A stretch of 41,435 nucleotides of DNA, taken from Oscillospiraceae bacterium (GTDB lineage Bacteria > Bacillota > Clostridia > Oscillospirales > Ruminococcaceae). This document shows positions 6,370 through 41,435 of the stretch, one piece after another. The position numbers were made by a program, and so were the translations under genes. Positions within the stretch are counted from its first letter, which is position 1, and every line of letters begins with the position of its first letter. The notes beneath the pieces were generated by a model, which saw only the letters and a program-made list of their open reading frames with translations, was not told the DNA's origin and ran no database searches. The DNA is taken from the NCBI GenBank assembly GCA_017550285.1, contig JAFZPP010000020.1, positions 1 to 41,435 of the forward strand, read 5' to 3'.

Positions 6370-8241
6370 ATGTGTGGAATAGTTGGCTTTTCGAGCCGGA
6401 TTGAGAATGCGGAGGCTGTTCTTGAGGAAATGATGGACCGCATTCGTCACCGCGGACCCGATGCCGGCGGAAAGTATCTCAATGGGGAGATCGCACTTGG
6501 ACACCGCCGTCTTTCGATTATTGATATCACAGAGCAGGGCGACCAGCCCATTTTTAACGAAGACCGATCAATGGTGCTCGTCTTCAACGGTGAAATTTAT
6601 AATTATCAGGAGATCCGTGCAGAGCTGCTCGCAGCGGGACACACCTTCAAAACGGAGACCGATTCCGAGGTGCTGATTCACGGCTATGAGGAATACGGCA
6701 CCGATCTGCTGAATAAGCTGCGCGGCATGTTTTCATTCGTCATCTGGGATGAGAACAAAAAGGAGCTCTTCGGCGCAAGAGATTTCTTCGGCATCAAGCC
6801 GATGTACTATGCGCAGATGGGCGGCAGCTTCCTTTTCGGCAGCGAGATCAAGTCGTTTCTGCCGCATCCGGATTTCAAAAAGGAGCTGAATACCGAGGCG
6901 CTGGAGCAGTATCTCACCTTCCAGTATTCCCCGACGGAGGATACCTTCTTCAAGGGCGTCAAAAAGCTGCCCGCAGCGCATTATTTCCTCTGGAAGGACG
7001 GTCAGCTGACCGTGCAGCGCTACTGGGATGTGCATTTTGAGGCGGATGAAGCACCGCTGCTCGGCGACTGGGTCAAGACCATTTCCGAGACCTTCCATGA
7101 CTCTGTCCGTGCGCATAAGATCGCGGATGTCGAGGTCGGCAGCTTCCTTTCCTCGGGTGTGGATTCCAGCTATGTGGCAGCCGTTGCAAATGTGGATAAG
7201 ACCTTTACGGTCGGCTTCGGCAGCGATGAGAAATACAATGAAATCGGCTGGGCAAAACGCTTCTCCCGTGCAATCGGCAAGGAGAATTACAGCCATGTGA
7301 TTACGCAGCAGGAATACTGGGATGTGCTCCCGAAGATTCAGTATCAGATGGATGAACCGCTTGCCGATCCTTCCTGCATTGCGCTGTATTTTGTCTGCAA
7401 GCTGGCGGCGGAGCAGGTCAAGGTTGTGCTTTCCGGCGAGGGTGCAGACGAGCTTTTCGGCGGCTATAATGTCTACAGTGAGCCGGACGGTACATGGTAT
7501 GACAAGCTGCCCATGGGACTGCGGCGCGGCGTTGCAAATGCGGCGAGTGTACTGCCTGCAAAGCGCGGCGTGAACTTCCTTGTCCGCAAGGGCAGAACGC
7601 TCGAGGAGCGTTTTATCGGCAATGCTTATATGTTTACGCCTGCCGAGCGCAAGGCGCTGCTGAAAATCGAGACCGGCGCGCCCGATCCGACCGCCGTCAC
7701 AAAGCCCTTCTATGACAAGGTCAGCGATCAGGATGCCGTCACGAAGATGCAGTATCTCGATCTGCATCTCTGGATGACCGGCGATATTTTGCTGAAAGCG
7801 GATAAAATGAGCATGGCGCATTCGCTGGAGCTGCGCGTGCCGTTCCTTGATAAAGAGCTGATGCATGTTGCGGAGCAGATTCCGACCAGATTCCGCGTGA
7901 CGCACAGCGTTCCGACGGATGACCATACGCCCTATACGACGAAATATGCGATGCGGCTTGCGGCAAAGCGCGATACGCCGCCGGAGACCGCCGATACCGC
8001 AGCGAAAAAGAAGCTCGGATTTCCGGTTCCGATCCGTGTCTGGCTGAAACAGGATGACTGCTACAATACCGTCCGGACGGCATTTGTCTCGCAGGATGCG
8101 GAGCAGTTCTTCCATACGGATAAGCTGGTCGAGCTGCTGGATCACCACAAAAACGGCAAGGGCGATTACAGCCGCAAGATCTGGACGGTGTACATGTTCC
8201 TTGTCTGGTATAAGGTCTATTTCGGTGACAGTGCCGCATAA
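6370..8241 (+). CDS. asnB: Asparagine synthetase (glutamine-hydrolysing)
   Basis: This 623-residue cytoplasmic enzyme makes asparagine from aspartate, ATP and glutamine. The N-terminal class II amidotransferase domain starts with the nucleophile Cys2 (MCGIVGF), followed by RHRGPD, GHRRLSIID, FNGEIYN and a TDSEVL segment. The synthetase domain carries the pyrophosphate loop as SSGVDSS, plus GEGADELFGGY and ELRVPFLDKEL. The length matches family members (about 610-640). AGGAGG lies 9 nt before the ATG, with a good promoter at 6287-6315. The ending is followed after 11 nt by a small SUKH-like gene, so the two are probably cotranscribed. Confidence 0.96.
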   Translation: MCGIVGFSSRIENAEAVLEEMMDRIRHRGPDAGGKYLNGEIALGHRRLSIIDITEQGDQPIFNEDRSMVLVFNGEIYNYQEIRAELLAAGHTFKTETDSEVLIHGYEEYGTDLLNKLRGMFSFVIWDENKKELFGARDFFGIKPMYYAQMGGSFLFGSEIKSFLPHPDFKKELNTEALEQYLTFQYSPTEDTFFKGVKKLPAAHYFLWKDGQLTVQRYWDVHFEADEAPLLGDWVKTISETFHDSVRAHKIADVEVGSFLSSGVDSSYVAAVANVDKTFTVGFGSDEKYNEIGWAKRFSRAIGKENYSHVITQQEYWDVLPKIQYQMDEPLADPSCIALYFVCKLAAEQVKVVLSGEGADELFGGYNVYSEPDGTWYDKLPMGLRRGVANAASVLPAKRGVNFLVRKGRTLEERFIGNAYMFTPAERKALLKIETGAPDPTAVTKPFYDKVSDQDAVTKMQYLDLHLWMTGDILLKADKMSMAHSLELRVPFLDKELMHVAEQIPTRFRVTHSVPTDDHTPYTTKYAMRLAAKRDTPPETADTAAKKKLGFPVPIRVWLKQDDCYNTVRTAFVSQDAEQFFHTDKLVELLDHHKNGKGDYSRKIWTVYMFLVWYKVYFGDSAA

Positions 8242-32711: not shown

Positions 32712-33070
32712 TTTGCAACTCAAAACGCAGAATTAACCTAGATTCGTGAATTTTAAGCAGACACGAAAGATTTCCATTGGTTTTACTGCAAAATACTTCC
32801 GATTCCGAAAGAAAAATTCGGTATTTTGAAGCACTTTGCAGGCGCAGTTCCCACGCAGGTTCACATGACGAGTTCCCACGAGTTGCATACACTAGCCCTT
32901 AATTCCTAGCGGAAACCTGCGGAAATACGAGTAAAATGAGCGAGAAAGACACATCATCCCCAAAGTCGAGTTGTTCCCACATAAAAACGTGCTTTTCATT
33001 GCCTAGTCAAAAGGCATATGACCGTTTCAGTCATTATTATGTATCATCAGTTGCCCGTTTGTTCTTTGAA

Positions 33071-33195
33071 TCATTTTTGTTCCTGTGTTATAGTGTTGAC
33101 ATTATTGTCACCGTTAGAATCAACGGAAACATCTACCTTCTGACTGTTGACGGAAATATCAGTGCCATCGAGCACGGAAGCAGCGATATCTGCAG
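33071..33195 (-). pseudogene. Coding remnant, inverted relative to the 33340 remnant
   Basis: On the minus strand this encodes DIAASVLDGTDISVNSQKVD followed by VSVDSNGDNNVN, ending at a TGA near 33074. About 18 of 31 residues match the plus-strand remnant at 33340-33455. No plausible start or upstream domain exists, so this is a fragment of a once longer gene. Confidence 0.55.
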
Positions 33196-33339
33196 CTTTT
33201 GATACGCTGATACATAATAACCGATCCGGAATGATACGGTCTGACCGGCTGAAATTAAAAAACTGCAATTCTGTGTACAAATGCGTTTCCGTCTGCCTAA
33301 CCGTGTGCAGCATCAATATCAACGACGGCACTATGACCG

Positions 33340-33455
33340 CAGCAAAAGACATCGCAGTTTCAGTACTGGATGATGCGGATATCAAAGTGAACGGACAGCC
33401 TGCAGATGTTTCACTTGATTCCGAGAGCGGCGTGAATGTCAGTCCTGAAAAGAAA
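33340..33455 (+). pseudogene. Coding remnant, partner of the 33071 remnant
   Basis: On the plus strand this encodes KDIAVSVLDDADIKVNGQPA followed by DVSLDSESGVNVSPEKK. It aligns with the minus-strand remnant (shared DIA-SVLD--DI-VN-Q--DVS-DS----NV). The two lie head to head, about 145 nt apart. Confidence 0.55.
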
Positions 33456-33606
33456 TCCGCTGCGTGGCGATGACAATGTTCGTGGCGGTTCCATTTCGGC
33501 AGAGTCTGCGTCCGCCTGCAATGATCGAAAATTCTCCTGCAGGTCATTTGCCGCATAAAAGCCGCTGCTCTCATCTTGCTTTTTGCATGATAATATGCTA
33601 TAATAA

Positions 33607-33637
33607 AATTGCCTGCGAAAATCTTACGCAGGCAATT
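33607..33637 (-). terminator. Terminator of the histidine kinase gene
   Basis: An 11-bp perfect stem (AATTGCCTGCG 33607-33617 with CGCAGGCAATT 33627-33637) has a 9-nt loop. It is followed on the minus strand by TTATTATAG, about 42 nt past the kinase stop. Confidence 0.82.
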
Positions 33638-33678
33638 CATTTTGCATATGACCGGATCACGCGGCTTTGATTTTTCTG

Positions 33679-35238
33679 TTACTGCCGAAGCATCTGTTCG
33701 ATCGGATTTACGGCGGAATCATCGGCATATTCCGTAGCCAGCGGCAGCGTAAAGGTGAACGCGGTGCCTTTGCCCTGTTCACTCTCAACGCCGATTGTGC
33801 CGCCGTGCGATTCTACGATGAATTTGACAATAAACAGTCCGAGTCCCGTGCCGGTTTCAGAGTGTTTGCCCTTATAGTACCGTTCCCAGATATGGGGCAG
33901 GTCTTCGGGCGAAATGCCGCTTCCGGTATCCCTGACGGTCACGGTGACCTGTTCGGCATCGGCTCCCGCTTTAATGAGCACCGTGCCGTTATTGGTATGC
34001 TTGAGCGCATTGGAAATCAGATTGACGAATACGCGCTGCAATCTGGTTGCGTCTGCATTGACCTTCGGCAGATCAATCGGGATGCGGAGGATCAGGCGGT
34101 TATGGTTCTTGTTCAGTACCGCGAAATACGTCTCGACCGTTTTGCGCACAAGGCTGTCCAGATCGCAGGGGGCTGATTCAAGCACCATTCTGCCTTCCTC
34201 AATGCGCGTCGCATCTAGAATCTGTGTGACCATCAGCGCCATGCGGTTTGCTTCCGAGGAGATGCGCCGAAGTTTATTCTGAACAGTCGTTTTTTCGCCG
34301 TCGTTCATAAGGTCAAGTTCTGCGTCCTGCGCATAACCGGACATGGCGGCAAGCGGTGTTTTCAGTTCATGGGATGCATCTGAGAGAAACGTCGTTTTCA
34401 TCTCATTGACCTGCACCAGCATATCATGCTCGGAAACGACCGGGTCTGCGATCTTCTTGGAAAGAATCGCTGAGATCACCAGAAACAGCGCAAATACACA
34501 GATAATTGAAATAATCATCATGAAGATGTACTTCCGAAAAAGCCTGTCCATGTTGTTCAGCAGGGTATCGGTCTGCTCGTCAGCGCATTCTTTGATCGGC
34601 TCGACCCAGCTGTTGACATTCCGCATGAGCACGCCGAAGCAGAGATTTTCTCCGGAATAATTCAGTGTGTTGTCCCATGCAATGACATATCCTTCAACGT
34701 CTTTGGTGTAGGAACCGCACGGCTGCTCCATACAGGTGTTCAGCCAGTCGATAAAGTTACTCTGATTGCCGTAGTATTCCGGCGCTTCTGCTGCTTTCTG
34801 ATCGAACAAAGCGATCATATCCTGCATCATCCGTTCTGCATTTTCAGCAGAATACATCTCATAACTGTCAAGCGTGCTGCCGTCATATAAAAAGAACACA
34901 TCTGCGCTGCTGAAATAGGTGACTGCCTGCTGCCGCAGCGCTTCCCGCCAATTCTGCGTGTCGATACTGCCTTCATACAGAAGCAAAGCCATCTCTTTGC
35001 CGAAGTCGTGCAGATACTGCTGCTGGGATGCCAGAAATTGCTGATAATACGCATCGGAAACCGCGGAAACGGTCTGACCTGCCATTGCGCCGGAATACAG
35101 ATTGACATTCACCGATGCCTGCTGATAAATCATATTGAAGATCATCGTGCAGATGCCGAGGACGGCGATCAGACACGAGATCAGTGCAGTCAACAGCTTT
35201 CGCCGCAGCAAACGGCTTTTGGATGTTTCTTTTCTCAA
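33679..35238 (-). CDS. Membrane sensor histidine kinase
   Basis: This is 519 residues from the TTG at 35238, which has AAAGGAG 7 nt upstream; the ATG at 35256 contains that site in its own codons and has no site before it. A short N-terminus is followed by helix 1 (15-39), an extracytoplasmic domain (about 40-237) and helix 2 (238-259). The HisKA box has phospho-acceptor His290 (DASHELKTPLAAMSGY). The HATPase domain has NLISNALKH (N box), DTGSGISPEDL (G1) and GTGLGLFIVK (G2). It phosphorylates the divergent response regulator. The outer domain has two Cys residues (169, 174) and no fold I recognise. Its promoter carries the shared AATTAC operator. Confidence 0.92.
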   Translation of the reverse strand: MRKETSKSRLLRRKLLTALISCLIAVLGICTMIFNMIYQQASVNVNLYSGAMAGQTVSAVSDAYYQQFLASQQQYLHDFGKEMALLLYEGSIDTQNWREALRQQAVTYFSSADVFFLYDGSTLDSYEMYSAENAERMMQDMIALFDQKAAEAPEYYGNQSNFIDWLNTCMEQPCGSYTKDVEGYVIAWDNTLNYSGENLCFGVLMRNVNSWVEPIKECADEQTDTLLNNMDRLFRKYIFMMIISIICVFALFLVISAILSKKIADPVVSEHDMLVQVNEMKTTFLSDASHELKTPLAAMSGYAQDAELDLMNDGEKTTVQNKLRRISSEANRMALMVTQILDATRIEEGRMVLESAPCDLDSLVRKTVETYFAVLNKNHNRLILRIPIDLPKVNADATRLQRVFVNLISNALKHTNNGTVLIKAGADAEQVTVTVRDTGSGISPEDLPHIWERYYKGKHSETGTGLGLFIVKFIVESHGGTIGVESEQGKGTAFTFTLPLATEYADDSAVNPIEQMLRQ

Positions 35239-35269
35239 AGACGTCACTCCTTTCATGGGCTGTGAGTCT

Positions 35270-35319
35270 ATTATACCATATTTTTACCGGAAATCAAATA
35301 GAATTACGGTTTTGTAATC
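35270..35319 (-). promoter_or_regulatory. Kinase promoter with AATTAC-N6-GTAATT operator
   Basis: In the kinase direction the inverted repeat (GATTACAAAACCGTAATT, 35319-35302) is followed by exactly 26 nt (35301-35276) and -10 TATAAT (35275-35270). A weak -35-like TTGATT lies inside the spacer. The same operator abuts the regulator's ribosome site (AGGGAGG) on the plus strand. The geometry is the same as at 36022, 40670 and 40879. Confidence 0.72.
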
Positions 35320-35331
35320 AGGGAGGTTGCT

Positions 35332-36018
35332 ATGGCACATATTTTGCTTGTCGAGGACGATACCGACATTATGCGGATCAATCAGAGCTTTCTGGAAAAA
35401 GAAGGCTACGACGTACACTGTGCCGATTCAGTGCAGCAGGCAGCATTTCTCCTGGAGGAATGCGTGCCGGATCTGGTATTGCTGGATGTAATGCTGCCGG
35501 ACGGCGACGGCATGGACTTCTGTAAGATTCTGCGGCAGAAAACACAGGCACCGGTCATCTTCCTGACCGCACGCGACGAGAACGACGACGTCATTAAGGG
35601 CTTCCGCAGCGGCGGCGATGACTACATCACGAAGCCCTATGATCTGAACGTGCTGAAAGCTCGCATCGAGGCACAGCTCCGCCGCAATGCCAAGCCGGAG
35701 GCACAGCATCCGCGAATTGAACTTCCGGATCTGATCATTGACCTGTTTTCCGGCACGGCTGAACTGGACGGCAATGAATGCTCCCTGCCGCAGCGTGAGC
35801 TGCAAATTCTTTATCTTCTGGCATCGCGGCTCGGTTCGCGCATCAGCTATCATGAAATCTATGAGAAAATCTACGGCTCCGACGTTGAGGACAGCAAGAA
35901 TACGATTCGCGTCAACATGTCCCGTCTGAAAAAGCATCTGGCAATGGATGATATGAGCACCTACGAGATTGCTTCGACCGCGGACGGCGAATATGTCCTG
36001 CGCAGGGTGATCTTCTGA
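35332..36018 (+). CDS. OmpR/PhoB-family response regulator
   Basis: This 228-residue DNA-binding regulator has a receiver domain (1-118) with acidic pair D9-D10, phospho-acceptor Asp52 (LVLLDVMLPDGDG), Thr79 (FLTARDE) and Lys101 (DYITKPYDL). The winged-helix domain (about 125-226) has LPQRELQILYLLASRLG, the recognition region NTIRVNMSRLKKHL, and a C-terminal hairpin (YEIASTADGEYVLRRV). It is divergent from its kinase rather than in the usual tandem order. The shared inverted repeat between them, also found at three other local promoters, is its most likely binding site (inference). GGGAGG lies 6 nt before the ATG. Confidence 0.95.
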   Translation: MAHILLVEDDTDIMRINQSFLEKEGYDVHCADSVQQAAFLLEECVPDLVLLDVMLPDGDGMDFCKILRQKTQAPVIFLTARDENDDVIKGFRSGGDDYITKPYDLNVLKARIEAQLRRNAKPEAQHPRIELPDLIIDLFSGTAELDGNECSLPQRELQILYLLASRLGSRISYHEIYEKIYGSDVEDSKNTIRVNMSRLKKHLAMDDMSTYEIASTADGEYVLRRVIF

Positions 36019-36021
36019 TGC

Positions 36022-36071
36022 AATAACAATTTCGGGATTCCGCACCGAATTGCCCCGTGCTCTGATATAAT
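36022..36071 (+). promoter_or_regulatory. Lipoprotein 1 promoter with degenerate operator
   Basis: AATAACAATTTCGGGATT (36022-36039) matches the operator AATTAC-N6-GTAATT at 9 of 12 arm positions, followed by CCGCAC (compare CTGCAC at the other two sites). Exactly 26 nt then lead to TATAAT (36066-36071). No good -35 is present. The start codon is 46 nt further. Confidence 0.6.
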
Positions 36072-36116
36072 GATAAAGGATCAGAACAGCATTTTATGGA
36101 GAAAGGAGCAGGAAAA

Positions 36117-37484
36117 ATGAAGAAGCTATGGTTTCTGCCGGTGATTCTCGGCGCAGCAATCTGTCTGTCCGGCTGCGGCCAGCGCAATGATCTGAATGTT
36201 CAGGAGAATGCGGTTCCGATTGTGCCGATTGAAACAACCGTTGATGAGCAGACGGATCGCGCGAGCGGAACAGAAAGTACGACAGCAGCCGAAACGAATC
36301 CCGCAACAGTCAAGCAATCCACAGTCCTGCGAACTTCCGCGGTCGGGACAGAACCGGCATCTGTTACAAGTGAGACTGCGGCAAATGCGGCTGAAACCGC
36401 AGTGCCGCAGAACAAAAGCGACAGCGATTCAGGCGGAACCGGCAGTACCGCCTCAAAGGATCTGCTGTACGGCAAATGGGAAACGGTTTCCTTTACCGGG
36501 AATTCCGGTGCGCGCATTTCGTATGATCTGTCTGATCCGGCACACCGAAGCTATTATGTCGGACTTGACCTAAACGGGAACGGTCAGTCTGCGGTGACCG
36601 TCGGGACCGAGGAACAGCCTGTCACGATCGCTCTGCGCGGCAATACGCTGACTGTCATGGGTACCGACCGGAACAACCCGGCTACACTGGATTTCACAGT
36701 CAGTGCAGACCGGAAAAGCATGACAGTGGAACTGATGAACGGCAGGATCACTGCGACGCTGACACGCATCAACCGCGACTTTTCGATCAGACGGTATGAA
36801 GCGCAGGAGCCCGATGCAGATTTCAGTCTCATTGCCGGTGAATGGAACTATCAGGAGGAAACAGAAATCGAATCTGTTTTCGGTACCGTGGGATTTGTCA
36901 CAGTGCAGCCGGATCATACATATTATTATCAGCCTGCGGACGGCGCGCTCCGGCGGAAGGGAACTGTCCGGACAGAGTATGAAGATACTGTTGACGGAGA
37001 AAAGAACGCGTTCTTTGCATTCTATGAGGATGACAGCAATGAACTGTGGGGCAGGACGGAAAGCAGCATGCCGGGCGGCAGGGGCAATTTTACCCTTGTT
37101 GGCAGCGGAGGCAAGCGTCTGTCCCCGTGGAATATGCAGGCAAACAAATTTGATCATTATGTCGGGCAGTGGCAGTCCGAAAGATGCAGCATTCAGATCG
37201 GGCGGGACGAAGAAGACTATATTGTGCAGTGTATATGGTCGACAGGTGCATCTGAATACAGTGAATGGAACTATCACTGTGCGGGCAATGATGAACAGAT
37301 GGAACTGGAATGTACCGGCGGCGGCACACTTTACCGTGCTGTGACTGCGCCGGACGGCTCCGAATCACGCACAGAGGTATACAATGACGGCTCGGCCGTC
37401 TTCAGCATGAACGGCAGCAAACTTCTCTGGACAGATCAGAAAGAACACGCTTCAGAGCAAATGGAATTTACGCTGCTCGGATAA
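36117..37484 (+). CDS. Lipoprotein with three W/Y-rich repeat domains
   Basis: This is 455 residues from ATG 36117 (AAAGGAG 8 nt upstream; an in-frame ATG at 36096 lies before that site). Signal peptide with lipobox LSGC (Cys20), so it should be lipid-anchored on the outer face. A Thr/Ala-rich linker (about 30-115) is followed by three domains beginning LYGKWE (118), IAGEWNYQEE (239) and YVGQWQSERCSIQIG (348). The middle one (GFVTVQPDHTYYYQ, NAFFAFYEDDSNELWGRTES) matches the repeats of the LPXTG protein at 38076. It lies downstream of the regulator with its own promoter, and shares a terminator with the sortase. Function is unknown; a ligand-binding or sensor-modulating role is possible. Confidence 0.88.
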   Translation: MKKLWFLPVILGAAICLSGCGQRNDLNVQENAVPIVPIETTVDEQTDRASGTESTTAAETNPATVKQSTVLRTSAVGTEPASVTSETAANAAETAVPQNKSDSDSGGTGSTASKDLLYGKWETVSFTGNSGARISYDLSDPAHRSYYVGLDLNGNGQSAVTVGTEEQPVTIALRGNTLTVMGTDRNNPATLDFTVSADRKSMTVELMNGRITATLTRINRDFSIRRYEAQEPDADFSLIAGEWNYQEETEIESVFGTVGFVTVQPDHTYYYQPADGALRRKGTVRTEYEDTVDGEKNAFFAFYEDDSNELWGRTESSMPGGRGNFTLVGSGGKRLSPWNMQANKFDHYVGQWQSERCSIQIGRDEEDYIVQCIWSTGASEYSEWNYHCAGNDEQMELECTGGGTLYRAVTAPDGSESRTEVYNDGSAVFSMNGSKLLWTDQKEHASEQMEFTLLG

Positions 37485-37500
37485 GCCACGGCAATGAAAT

Positions 37501-37533
37501 AAACAGGCGGTCTGCACGACCGCCTGTTTTTTT
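37501..37533. terminator. Bidirectional terminator between lipoprotein 1 and the sortase
   Basis: A perfect 12-bp stem (AAACAGGCGGTC 37501-37512 with GACCGCCTGTTT 37518-37529) has a 5-nt loop and T-runs on both sides. It ends the lipoprotein gene (+) and the LPXTG-sortase operon (-). Confidence 0.95.
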
Positions 37534-38059
37534 ATGATTTCTGCAATTCACAAAACCCTGTCACGACAAGCCGCTGTGAGCCGTCATCCGTACAGGTGAT
37601 GAGCGTGATGCGGTCATCGCCTGAATCGTCAAGCACCCATGTTTCATCCGGGTTCACAACAAAATGATCGCTGACGGTGTAGTCATAACGGTTCTTCCCG
37701 GTGTCGTACAGCGTAATCGTCATGCCGTTCTCAATGTCTTTGAGCTTGTTGAAATATTCCTTGTAGATCGTGCTGCTGTGACCGGCAATACAGTAATTGC
37801 CGCTCCCGAAATCTCCGGTTCCGGTAAAATGTCCGACGGCCTTCGCAATCGTCTGCTGATCCGTGCCCTCTAAAACGGGTGCTTTGATGTTCAGATCAGC
37901 GATCTCAACGACCGGATTCTCCCGCATCAGTATCTGCTTCTGATGCATTCGGTACAGCTTCCTTCCGCCGTAAAACAGCATGATGGTGCATCCTGCCATG
38001 ATCGCAGTGAATCCTGCAAAAAACAGGATCCGCTGCTTTCTTGTTCTCTTTTGTTTCAT
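37532..38059 (-). CDS. Sortase
   Basis: This is 175 residues from the ATG at 38059, 16 nt after the LPXTG gene stop; a longer reading from 38125 would overlap that gene. A basic start and one helix (about 11-30) anchor it in the membrane. Catalytic residues are His94 (CIAGHSSTIY), Cys156 (ITLITC) and Arg163 (SQRLVV). Sortases cleave LPXTG between Thr and Gly and attach the protein to peptidoglycan; the LPQTG protein directly upstream is the evident substrate. The class (D or E-like) is uncertain. It should be cotranscribed with the substrate from the operator-bearing promoter at 40670. Confidence 0.93.
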   Translation of the reverse strand: MKQKRTRKQRILFFAGFTAIMAGCTIMLFYGGRKLYRMHQKQILMRENPVVEIADLNIKAPVLEGTDQQTIAKAVGHFTGTGDFGSGNYCIAGHSSTIYKEYFNKLKDIENGMTITLYDTGKNRYDYTVSDHFVVNPDETWVLDDSGDDRITLITCTDDGSQRLVVTGFCELQKS

Positions 38060-38075
38060 TTCCTTGATCTTTCTT

Positions 38076-40610
38076 TTACTGTTCGTTGTTTCTGCGGCGG
38101 AGCATGCCGGACTTTCTGACTGCAAGGAAGCCGCAAACGGTCAGCAGGAATGCGCCGAGCATCATCATCAGGGTTTTCAGGGAATTGTTGCCGGTCTGCG
38201 GCAGGTTGACCGTGCTCTGATCAGAGAACCGTTCGCCGATGCCGGTTTCCGGATCCACGGTATATGCATCCAGTGCTTCACCGTTTTCATCTTCCAGCAC
38301 AACGGTGACCGTACCGCCCAGATTCGTCATGGTGTGCGCATTTGCCGGAAGAATACCGGTCTTCTGCTGATAGTCCTTCTTTGCCATCTGCATAAGCTTT
38401 TCTGCGGAATACTTCGGGTTTTCCGCTGCTTCACGCACAAAGCTGATATCAGTGTTGGAAAGCTGAAGCGTTTCCAGCGGAAGCTGACCGTCTGCCTTGA
38501 TTGTCATATAAATCTGGTTGAACACGCCGGTTTCGTCTGCCACATACAGCACATACAGGTACTCTCTTTTTTCCGTGAAGAAATCATAGTTGTACTGGAG
38601 CTTCATGATGCCCTCGCTTACGCTTTCCGCACGGCCGTCCTTGTAAGTGACCAGACGGAATCTGCCGGAAACAGGATCCAGATTCGAGAAGGTCAGCAAT
38701 GTTTCAGTATTCTGGTCATCATTGTTCATACGCCACGAACCTTCCAGTGCCGTCGCACTGCGGCCAGCCGGTGCCGCTGCCGCATCATAAAGCTGATAGC
38801 GGTCTGTGTCATACGGTTCTGTGCTGCGGCTGAACGAAACCGGCTGCTCACCGGCAGTCGTGAGCGTATCCAGCGGAAGAACGCCGGTCATGTCAAATAC
38901 CATATCAACATCCTCACCGTAATAAAGGACATAGTAGTAGTTGCGTTTCCCGACTGCATCAGCGGTATACTGAATCTTCGCCCAGCCTGTACGGGAAAGT
39001 TCAATGCCGTCCGGTTCTGTAACAGTCATCATATACTGCGCAGAAAGCATATCGCACTGATAGAAATAATATGCGACCTGCATGCCGTCAAAATTGCCGC
39101 CCTGCATCTTCCGGTTGATCCATTCGCCCTCAAGTGCTTTCATGCTGATGCCGGTCGCCGGAATCTCTGTAACATCATAGAAGCCGTGGGCATTCGGCTC
39201 AATTTCTGTGCGTTCCAGCTTCATTTCAGAATCTTGGCCGATGTAAAGCGTATTCTGATTCACTTTGTTCAGACTGTCCTGGCAGCCGAACCAGTATTCT
39301 CCGTTGCTGTCGATGAAATCATACCAGATCGTTACACTCAGGTTCGGATGCATCTCATAGGAAGCAAACACGCTGCCGGTGGTTACATTGCCTGCTGCAT
39401 CGCGGTAAGTATAAGTGTTATGATCGCTGACAGTCACATAACCTGCATCGGAATAACCGGCCTCATTGGAATTGGTTTTCATTTGCTTCAGCGTCCATGA
39501 ACCGGCAATATCTGCTCCGCTTGCTTTGTGTACACTCTGATCACGCAGGAATCTGCTGCCCTGACTGAGTTCAAGCACCTGACCGTCATCGCTGAGCGCA
39601 CCTTCCATGAACAGCTCACCTTCTTTAGTAAAGAGGCGGTAAACCGCGGCATCGTTTTCATTCTTATCTTTCACAACGTGAATGTTCACGCTGCCTGTCA
39701 CGGAACTGTAAAATTCAAATCCCAGACTGCTGTTTTTTCCGTCCGCGTAAATAAAGCTGCCGTTTTCATCCACGGTTATAATGACTTCTGTATCATCTTC
39801 TTCGACGGAGGTATCCAGATACCATTTGCCGGCAAGATCAGCGGGGCTTGCCGGAATTGCCGGGACTGTTTCGTTATCTGCAAACAGCCGTGCATCGCCG
39901 CCGTTTCCGATTGTCAGGACACTGCCGTCATCTGTTTTTGTGCAGCCCATCCGGAATTTGCCGTTGTCGTCGGTGAAGTTGTACCATGCTGCGGTACTGC
40001 CGTCCGGATAGACCTCGTAAGCCACAGTCACTTTGCCGCTGACCGACTGACCGGCAGCGTCCGTATAGATGTAGGCGCCGCCCTCGTATACAGTCACAGT
40101 GCCTGCGGTATCATAGGTGTCCGCATTTTCATTCCGGGTCTGATAGAAATAGCGTCCTGCAATATCGGAAGGCACGGCGTTCTCGTAATTCTTCGTATCT
40201 TTTGTAAGCTGTGCGCTGCCGTCCTGTCCGACCGGGAGTGTGTTTTCGCCGGTTTCCGGCTTCATGCAGCCGAAACGGAAGGTACCGTCATTGCCATAGA
40301 AGCTGTAAATGGCTTTCTTTGTGCCGTCCGGATGCTTGTCATATTCGACTTTGACCGTGCCGCCGTCTGCGGTATTTTCCGCATAATTGAAATAGGAATA
40401 TGTGCCGTCTGTTTCAACCATCACATACGCAACATTCCTGCCGCTTTCCTGATAGTACCATCTGCCTGCGATGTCTGCCGGTGATTCTTTCTGTTGTTCT
40501 GTTGTTGCCGTAACGACCGGTGCGTCTGCTGCCGCCGCCTGAATGCCGGCTGCCGGAACAGATGCAAGAACGACGCTGACCATTGCAAGATAAGTGATGA
40601 GCTTTTTCAT
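38076..40610 (-). CDS. LPXTG cell-wall protein with six W/Y-rich repeats
   Basis: This is an 844-residue secreted wall protein: signal peptide (1 to about 28), six repeat domains starting near 46 (DIAGRWYYQE), 149 (DIAGRYFYQ), 258 (DLAGKWYLD), 367 (DIAGSWTLKQ), 492 (LEGEWINRK) and 622 (LEGSWRMNN). The first four are close; the last two are diverged. Residues about 730-800 (AEKLMQMAKKDYQQKTG, DAYTVDPETGIG) form a separate small domain. LPQTG at 803-807, a hydrophobic helix and RKSGMLRRRNNEQ complete the sorting signal. GGAGG lies 8 nt before the ATG. The repeats match the middle domain of lipoprotein 1. The ligand is unknown; lipocalin-like or carbohydrate-binding folds are guesses. Confidence 0.93.
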   Translation of the reverse strand: MKKLITYLAMVSVVLASVPAAGIQAAAADAPVVTATTEQQKESPADIAGRWYYQESGRNVAYVMVETDGTYSYFNYAENTADGGTVKVEYDKHPDGTKKAIYSFYGNDGTFRFGCMKPETGENTLPVGQDGSAQLTKDTKNYENAVPSDIAGRYFYQTRNENADTYDTAGTVTVYEGGAYIYTDAAGQSVSGKVTVAYEVYPDGSTAAWYNFTDDNGKFRMGCTKTDDGSVLTIGNGGDARLFADNETVPAIPASPADLAGKWYLDTSVEEDDTEVIITVDENGSFIYADGKNSSLGFEFYSSVTGSVNIHVVKDKNENDAAVYRLFTKEGELFMEGALSDDGQVLELSQGSRFLRDQSVHKASGADIAGSWTLKQMKTNSNEAGYSDAGYVTVSDHNTYTYRDAAGNVTTGSVFASYEMHPNLSVTIWYDFIDSNGEYWFGCQDSLNKVNQNTLYIGQDSEMKLERTEIEPNAHGFYDVTEIPATGISMKALEGEWINRKMQGGNFDGMQVAYYFYQCDMLSAQYMMTVTEPDGIELSRTGWAKIQYTADAVGKRNYYYVLYYGEDVDMVFDMTGVLPLDTLTTAGEQPVSFSRSTEPYDTDRYQLYDAAAAPAGRSATALEGSWRMNNDDQNTETLLTFSNLDPVSGRFRLVTYKDGRAESVSEGIMKLQYNYDFFTEKREYLYVLYVADETGVFNQIYMTIKADGQLPLETLQLSNTDISFVREAAENPKYSAEKLMQMAKKDYQQKTGILPANAHTMTNLGGTVTVVLEDENGEALDAYTVDPETGIGERFSDQSTVNLPQTGNNSLKTLMMMLGAFLLTVCGFLAVRKSGMLRRRNNEQ

Positions 40611-40669
40611 AGTGATTACCTCCGAATCGTTTTTCAGTTTATTATGCGAAGTTCCCTTCGACTGACCTC

Positions 40670-40719
40670 ATCATAGCACACAATTCCGGAAAAAGGTGCA
40701 GAATTACAAATTTGTAATT
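40670..40719 (-). promoter_or_regulatory. LPXTG-sortase operon promoter with perfect operator
   Basis: The perfect 18-bp palindrome AATTACAAATTTGTAATT (40719-40702 in the gene direction) is followed by CTGCAC and exactly 26 nt in total (40701-40676), then -10 TATGAT (40675-40670). The -35 position is poor (CACCTT), as expected for an activator-dependent promoter. The start codon is 60 nt downstream. Confidence 0.78.
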
Positions 40720-40816
40720 GAAATGACTCTATCATTTTTCAGAAGGCCCTCTGATGATATTGCCGCGCAGCAACTATTATAATATCCTGCAATCCTTCCT
40801 TCTGCCTGACGATATC

Positions 40817-40845
40817 TTGCGTTTCTCAATAAAGTATGTTATAAT
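40817..40845 (+). promoter_or_regulatory. Additional sigma-A-like promoter upstream of lipoprotein 2
   Basis: TTGCGT (40817-40822), a 17-nt spacer and TATAAT (40840-40845) are followed by an A/T-run. It lies 34 nt before the operator at 40879, so it could provide basal expression. Confidence 0.55.
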
Positions 40846-40878
40846 AAAAAATTTTTTCACAGCACTTTTCTGATACGC

Positions 40879-40928
40879 AATTACAATTCTGTAATTCTGC
40901 ACTGATTTGCTGCAAAATCTGCTATAAT
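40879..40928 (+). promoter_or_regulatory. Lipoprotein 2 promoter with AATTAC-N6-GTAATT operator
   Basis: AATTACAATTCTGTAATT (40879-40896), then CTGCAC and exactly 26 nt in total (40897-40922), then -10 TATAAT (40923-40928). The -35 position (CACTGA) is poor. The layout and the CTGCAC hexamer are identical to the LPXTG promoter at 40670-40719. Confidence 0.78.
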
Positions 40929-40980
40929 CACCATGTCAGCAAACGCTGTTCTGAATGTCGAAATGAAAAGGAGTATGATT

Positions 40981-41435
40981 ATGAAAAAGCAGATTATTGC
41001 AGCAGCCGCTCTTTGTGCCGCCATTTGTCTGCCGGATGCGGCGCAGATATCAATATTACAACAGCTCCGGCAACCGCCGTCGTGACGGCGGCAAACGGAA
41101 CCGATGTTTCCGATGTTTCCGCTGTCCTGGAAACAACAGAAACAACCGTCAATGCCGTACAAGATACAACCGCAGCAGTCACGGAGCTTCAGACGACTGC
41201 CGCGGAAATCACGACCGCGCCTGCTGAGACGACCGCCGCCGCGATCATTACGACATCCGCTGCGGAAAAACCGGTCATTACCGTTTCAGAATCCAGCGCA
41301 AAGGAAGCATACCGGAATCCGGACACACAGTTTTACTTTCTTTATGAATGCAAACTGCCGTATTACGAGTGCAGCAATCCGGACAGCGCGATGAAAGCAA
41401 ATCTGGATGAACTGAACGAGCAGCTGCGACAGATC
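40981..41435 (+). pseudogene. Lipoprotein 2, frameshifted at the lipobox, 3' end beyond the window
   Basis: AAAAGGAG lies 7 nt before ATG 40981. The signal peptide MKKQIIAAAALCAAICL reads well, but then the frame passes to a TGA at 41083-41085. One missing base between 41031 and 41032 explains this: shifting frame there gives LSGCGADINITTAPATAVV and an uninterrupted 130-residue reading to the window end. Lipoprotein 1 has the same AAICLSGCG with Cys at the same position 20. After the lipobox comes a Thr/Ala/Glu-rich linker, then a domain starting NPDTQFYFLYECKLPYYE, which may resemble DUF4163/DUF3298 outer domains. Either a sequencing error, phase variation or a real disruption. Confidence 0.8.

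Follow-up and report, generated by a model that had tools for sequence, protein, structure and literature searches.

Which protein reads an inverted repeat that recurs at four promoters of an Oscillospiraceae bacterium, and what does it control? The repeat, AATTAC-N6-GTAATT, lies on contig JAFZPP010000020.1 (assembly GCA_017550285.1), all 41,435 nucleotides of which were analysed and are called the window here. It precedes the genes for a sensor histidine kinase, two lipoproteins and a sortase-linked wall protein, and one copy sits between the kinase gene and a divergent response regulator gene at 35332. We consider it probable (roughly 80%), from comparative sequence evidence, that the element RATTACAAATTTGTAATT is the operator of this regulator, of its orthologs and of a 98%-identical paralog in Ruminococcus, and that its targets are activated from it. 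A preliminary description of the locus had proposed a response-regulator operator controlling the kinase, the lipoproteins and the wall protein-sortase pair. The comparisons below support that proposal, but the predicted regulon extends beyond the window and one of the proposed targets, lipoprotein 2, is disrupted in this assembly.

Direct reading of the sequence places the palindrome at 35302-35319 for the kinase (minus strand; one mismatch; AATTACGGTTTTGTAATC on the plus strand), at 40702-40719 for the wall protein-sortase operon (minus strand, no mismatch), at 40879-40896 for lipoprotein 2 (plus strand, no mismatch) and, in a degenerate form with three mismatches (AATAACAATTTCGGGATT), at 36022-36039 for lipoprotein 1 (plus strand). 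The corresponding -10 boxes are found at 35270-35275 (TATAAT, minus strand), 40670-40675 (TATGAT, minus strand), 40923-40928 (TATAAT, plus strand) and 36066-36071 (plus strand). At all four promoters, 26 nucleotides separate the palindrome from the -10 box, counted along the direction of transcription. The positions of the palindromes agree with those given in the preliminary description, and so does the 26-nucleotide spacing, which was recovered by direct reading and by a pattern scan of the genome. CTGCAC follows the palindromes of the wall protein and lipoprotein 2, and CCGCAC that of lipoprotein 1, also as first described. Because CTGCAC occurs on the promoter side only, we read it as a promoter-side contact or a part of the -35 region, not as a third half site. 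The half sites can alternatively be written as TTACA/TGTAA around a 4-nucleotide centre. A direct-repeat reading was rejected, as no period of 10-11 nucleotides is visible by eye in the sequence logo.

Each of the four promoters also has a TG one nucleotide ahead of the -10 box (an extended -10). The best match to TTGACA reaches four of six positions at the kinase promoter, three at those of the wall protein and lipoprotein 2, and two at that of lipoprotein 1. The earlier statement that at least three of these promoters lack a good -35 box holds for the wall protein and both lipoproteins; it does not extend to the kinase promoter, whose TTGATT at a 16-nucleotide spacer (10/12) is the best of the four and was graded fair. 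With the -10 box numbered -12 to -7, the palindrome spans about -56 to -39. Being located ahead of the -10 boxes, the palindromes would not be part of the target mRNAs, and no RNA element in Rfam was matched at the gathering threshold within 33000-41435.

Reversed-pattern controls, shuffled sequences and a matrix trained on other loci ruled out chance as the source of this pattern. With up to two mismatches, five palindromes occur in the window against 0.80 expected, a count that none of 100 shuffles reached; the five take in a decayed copy (33253) and, at 7285, a match that is unrelated, but not the degenerate copy at 36022. The pattern palindrome-N26-TATRAT, with up to three mismatches, was found at 16 places in the genome from which the window comes, and its reversed control at none. 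Ten of the 16 are good sites: the four in the window and C1:296, C29:131729, C29:130977, C29:129339, C10:54531 and C48:161873. Three others are opposite-strand readings of the same palindromes, and the last three are matches with three mismatches (contigs C31, C41 and C43) that were set aside, one of which, in C41, could be a weak true site. We trained the test matrix on 28 non-redundant sites taken only from loci of Ruminococcus flavefaciens, R. albus and other more distant Ruminococcus (L070-L085, L088, L089). Applied to both strands of the window, it ranked the four sites first to fourth, with 53.0 bits for the kinase, 52.6 for lipoprotein 2, 47.9 for the wall protein and 24.0 for lipoprotein 1. 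The next score, 7.0, is the reverse reading of one of these sites; the decayed copy reached 3.3 and the best of 12 one-strand Markov shuffles 0.7. When 61 genomes were scanned with two mismatches, the reversed control matched in a few (G008, G015, G034, G045, G056), and matches of this kind in distant genomes were left unused because they are at the chance level of that control.

The motif scan of this genome and its relatives, a check proposed in the preliminary description, thus yielded six further good sites in the same genome and an element that is kept in relatives. Three of the six belong to a second kinase-regulator-lipoprotein cluster (C29:129339-132439), in which the kinase and lipoprotein promoters have sites of their own and the regulator is 98% identical to that of the window. 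Contig C1 opens with the same coding sequence as closes the window, so C1:296 probably marks the gene that comes next in this cluster, lipoprotein 3. In a relative (G003, contig C4), the wall protein, lipoprotein 2 and lipoprotein 3 follow in this order on one contig, with an extra gene for the shared domain described below between the last two.

The regulator (35332-36018, plus strand) belongs to the OmpR/PhoB family by its matches to PF00072 (Response_reg; 100.9 bits, cut-off 30.2) and PF00486 (Trans_reg_C; 42.1 bits, cut-off 26.2). Orthologs that are 82-100% identical occur in 28 loci filed under Ruminococcus, Oscillospiraceae or Clostridiales; a 33%-identical protein (L090) is no ortholog and enters none of the counts. 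One locus (L087) begins at the regulator, leaving 27 in which an upstream site could be sought. In 26 of these 27, a palindrome with at most two mismatches lies 12-22 nucleotides upstream of the regulator gene, as does the one at 35302-35319, 12 nucleotides ahead of the regulator start codon. The kinase-side -10 box stands at 26 nucleotides in 22 of the 27 loci and at 27 nucleotides in three (L069, L074, L081). Across 29 aligned regulators, the segment NTIRVN[IM]SRLKKH, which we take to be the recognition helix, is invariant except for the I/M alternation. By eye, the sensor parts of the kinases at loci L062-L089 diverge strongly between species and are of two or more very different types, whereas the regulator and the operator are unchanged; for the kinase sensor part, the search for a solved relative gave no convincing match (best E 0.028).

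In relatives, the corresponding genes for lipoproteins and wall proteins are preceded by sites of this layout, and the orthologs of lipoprotein 1 at L065-L068 and L087 have sites with only zero or one palindrome mismatch. We collected 84 sites, which reduce to 61 at 85% identity. In these 61, positions that were no part of the search pattern are conserved (A7 98%, A8 83%, T10 86%, T12 90%, C24 72%, T42 93%, G43 88%), including AAATTT-like bases between the half sites and, at T42 and G43, the TG ahead of the -10 box. A later set of 49 sites has this TG in 43. The palindrome and the -10 box are kept while much of the intervening stretch varies. Among the spacings tried (24-28 nucleotides), raw counts are 88 places at 26, ten at 27, three each at 24 and 25, and none at 28.

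What do these sites control? Behind them, in this genome and in related loci, we found 100 reading frames, with near-identical relatives counted apart: 28 kinases, five frames within regulator genes, where the operator is read in the opposite direction, and a further 67. A domain of about 95 residues is shared by 56 of the 67 (pattern in alignment A1: G-W-YQ ... DGTYxY ... GTVxxxYDxxPDG ... YxFY ... GNGG), and nearly all target frames begin with a signal sequence by eye. Among the 11 frames that lack the domain are those of the disrupted lipoprotein 2 and its relatives, a PI-PLC-X protein encoded in G009, a protein that looks sortase-like by eye (L084) and one match due to chance (L086, three mismatches). 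Some targets also carry SH3_3. The shared domain has no convincing Pfam family (best single-member E 0.0009) and no convincing solved relative (best E 0.014). It occurs in up to 15 instances per genome and is rare outside the genus, being found at E ≤1e-6 in three of 148 genomes of the family, the present one included.

We then asked how often genes for this domain have a site. Four genomes (the present one, G000, and G004, G021 and G025) hold 28 such genes. With a matrix that included sites of the present genome, a site of at least 24.5 bits lies upstream of 21 of them and a degenerate one (16.7 bits) upstream of one. Five of the six remaining genes are directly downstream of a site-bearing gene (23, 23 and 47 nucleotides) or 95 nucleotides behind a wall protein-sortase pair. 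Domain genes of three other genomes, G016 (C4:1916 and C15:24702), G072 (L154) and G149 (L155), have no element in those loci and may use another regulator. The regulon differs between species. In G009, which has no detected regulator or shared domain, a perfect element (C90:2402-2451, L102) precedes the gene for the PI-PLC-X-domain protein. In G004, two elements (C29:2362, L152; C11:115425, L150) lie ahead of a BspA-like repeat protein (by eye) and a 687-residue secreted protein.

The element is specific and co-occurs with the regulator. The pattern RATTAC-N6-GTAATT-N23-TGNTATRAT, with no mismatch, was found in only one of 394 sampled genomes of the order, namely the one that holds the window, at seven places; no other genome of the genus was seen in this sample, so that it tests specificity outside the genus. 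The preliminary description had regarded two patterns as damaging to its proposal, a motif widespread at unrelated promoters and a motif not conserved upstream of these genes in relatives, and neither was found. Within the genus, we sampled 30 genomes, counting the regulator at E ≤1e-60, the element at no more than one mismatch and the shared domain at E ≤1e-6. The regulator is present in 12, the element in 16 and the domain in 16. All 12 genomes with the regulator have both the element and the domain, and 15 of the 16 with the domain have the element. Of the 18 genomes in which the regulator was not detected, 14 have no element and four have one. Fisher's test of regulator against element gives P = 2e-5, a value that overstates independence, as the genomes are related.

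Those four genomes (G002, G003, G007 and G009), which have only 29-38% identical relatives, weigh against the regulator as the binder and would suit a reading in which another transcription factor binds the palindrome and the regulator and kinase are merely among its targets. A contig end explains only one of the four: in G003 the wall protein gene is cut by the end of the contig, beyond which the regulator may merely lie. This explanation was ruled out for G002, where unrelated sequence lies upstream of the kinase gene; the 470 bases there are devoid of both regulator and palindrome, no more than 33 bases at the start of the kinase fit the usual layout, and the regulator region would have been lost, rearranged or misassembled. 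Nothing beyond fragmented assemblies accounts for G007 and G009. Other observations also count against the proposed explanation. Locus L084 has the regulator with no adjacent site, and L089 has the palindrome; in neither is there a TATRAT at 26-27 nucleotides on the kinase side. Genome G016 has the domain and neither the regulator nor, genome-wide at up to one mismatch, the element, and one domain gene of the present genome (C10:63525-63779) has no site and no site-bearing neighbour that we could see. Moreover, most OmpR-family regulators, among them PhoB and KdpE, bind direct repeats, so that palindromes are unusual beyond the family's metal branch. We nevertheless judge a different binder unlikely, given that the palindrome accompanies the regulator gene at 26 of 27 loci, that the element is present in 12 of 12 regulator-bearing genomes, and that the paralogous C29 cluster combines kinase, regulator and sites. 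When five main genes of the window cluster were scanned, moreover, the regulator alone matched a DNA-binding family.

If the regulator is the binder, how would it act? We propose that the divergent kinase (33679-35256) would detect an extracellular cue and phosphorylate the regulator, a dimer of which would occupy the palindrome at about -56 to -39 and contact RNA polymerase on a promoter whose -10 is extended (TGnTATAAT) and whose -35 is mostly degenerate. Transcription would then rise for the kinase, for dispersed exported lipoproteins and for the sortase-anchored wall protein, most of them with the common domain. The outcome would be a positive loop on the kinase together with activation of a surface set. 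We infer an activator from this layout, because the palindrome lies upstream of the core promoter, the -10 is extended and the -35 is poor.

The same operator and regulon could also serve a regulator that mainly represses by blocking access, with the cue relieving repression. Two features fit such a scheme: the best TTGACA match in the -35 region is no worse than chance, averaging 3.35 of 6 positions where shuffled spacers give 2.90 (n=49), and the palindrome lies 12-22 nucleotides before the regulator start codon, where a bound protein would hinder transcription of the regulator. This closeness also weighs against a purely activating role, as the regulator could repress its own gene from there. 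In the alignment, no convincing -10 or -35 for the regulator's own promoter was seen between kinase and regulator; the gene may be repressed through this operator or read from a promoter inside that stretch. At the targets, on the other hand, the near-fixed 26-nucleotide spacing, the palindrome position and a -35 that is poor in absolute terms make up the usual activator layout, and general repression seems quite unlikely. That the sites are copies of a duplicated promoter cassette with no present regulatory meaning is highly improbable: many targets are paralogous and some of their sites may share descent (84 sites reduce to 61), but unrelated genes carry the element (the kinase, the G009 PI-PLC-X protein, the PdaC/DUF3298-like lipoproteins), the palindrome and -10 box persist while the stretch between them varies, and the copy beside a gene remnant at 33253 has decayed.

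Members of Ruminococcus are major degraders of fibre in the rumen and gut. Somewhat doubtfully, we suggest a Ruminococcus-specific envelope-surveillance switch that would remodel the surface against host or rumen attack, for example by a wall-active agent. A near-invariant palindrome-binding regulator would be fed by kinases with species-divergent sensor parts, and would drive fast-changing targets, namely proteins with the new, genus-centred domain and RsiV/PdaC-like, SH3_3 and, in one species, PI-PLC-like proteins.

Palindromic operators have precedents in the OmpR family, and are documented for CusR, CopR and CzcR in the available part of one report (PMC11195947). According to the same text, the Escherichia coli CusR palindrome AAAATGACAAnnTTGTCATTTT has TGACA/TGTCA half sites around a 4-nucleotide centre, the geometry of TTACA-N4-TGTAA here, and in the accessible text of another report HprR reads the CusR sequence (PMC8249747). 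The present system resembles these in its family, in the palindrome beside the regulator's own gene (26 of 27 loci for the predicted operator) and in the predicted activation of a divergent operon. It differs in that its regulator scores 131.7 bits against the TIGR01387 cut-off of 279.2, in that its predicted targets in the window, instead of serving metal efflux, are lipoproteins, a wall protein, a sortase and a kinase, and in that the kinase is divergent from the regulator and not in one operon with it. The regulator would thus work as a CusR-type palindrome reader from outside TIGR01387.

Its best solved relative is KdpE (4kfc, E 2.3e-34) and its top NCBIfam scores are to PhoB models, which have the same two-domain build; its PhoB and KdpE scores fall far below the curated cut-offs (best 155.9 against 270). 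HP1043 (HsrA) is likewise of this family with a site near promoters; unlike the present regulator, it is described in the part of the report that was available as an orphan with no partner kinase, whose site consists of two TTTAAG direct repeats with a 5-bp spacer (PMC5253667). Among the targets, the C48 lipoprotein (PdaC 25.5 bits, cut-off 29.1; DUF3298 21.4, cut-off 24.1) and an ortholog of lipoprotein 2 (PdaC 20.6, DUF3298 18.3) weakly resemble RsiV/PdaC-type proteins with DUF4163-DUF3298 domains, in both cases below the Pfam gathering scores. The targets here, in contrast to RsiV, are lipoproteins and not anti-sigma factors, and lysozyme binding is, according to one study, not common to all proteins that have these domains (PMC5014341).

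A two-component regulon is an ordinary kind of system; in the open-licence PMC literature, Ruminococcus included, we found no description of this operator or regulon, nor was the surface domain found described. The operator offers a sequence tag by which candidate regulon members can be listed in any sequenced relative, and it leads to a surface domain unrecognised by Pfam. Beyond the metal branch, this is likely a further OmpR-family regulator whose operator is a palindrome and not a direct repeat.

The remaining features of the window cluster are as follows. The kinase gene (33679-35256, minus strand; HisKA and HATPase_c by domain scan) may start at TTG 35238, preceded by AAAGGAG, which would give 519 residues. 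Lipoprotein 1 (36117-37484, plus strand) has one copy of the shared domain. A terminator-like hairpin that can be read on both strands (37501-37529) separates it from the sortase gene (37532-38059, minus strand; PF04203), which follows the wall protein gene by 16 nucleotides and presumably belongs to its operon. The wall protein (38076-40610, minus strand; 844 residues) has at least four copies of the shared domain. No Pfam model matched it; its C-terminus, LPQTG...RKSGMLRRRNNEQ, was identified by reading the sequence, beside the adjacent sortase.

The 5' part of lipoprotein 2 begins at ATG 40981 (40981-41085, plus strand). Its frame is broken between the signal peptide and the lipobox, and the rest, which lies in a different frame from about 41013 on, runs into contig C1, where the 3' part (L108, 1-189) stops early. 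Both pieces, the window's 40981-41435 and that in C1, are contig ends, and given this position the disruption is possibly an assembly error. Relatives G003 and G004 have intact orthologs (L101 and L145).

Two further observations concern the promoters themselves. A repeat-like insertion (AAATTATAATGAATGCGTTTGCATTCATTATACC and relatives) apparently lies at the kinase -10 in L066, L069 and L086, between the kinase and the -10, and in G002 (L103, 300-480), and could be a small mobile element inserting at this promoter. A lipoprotein gene remnant at 33147-33473 contains the decayed element (33253-33302, plus strand), of which a similar, intact copy exists in the relative G004 (C55:84247); the remnant and its operator seem to have decayed together.

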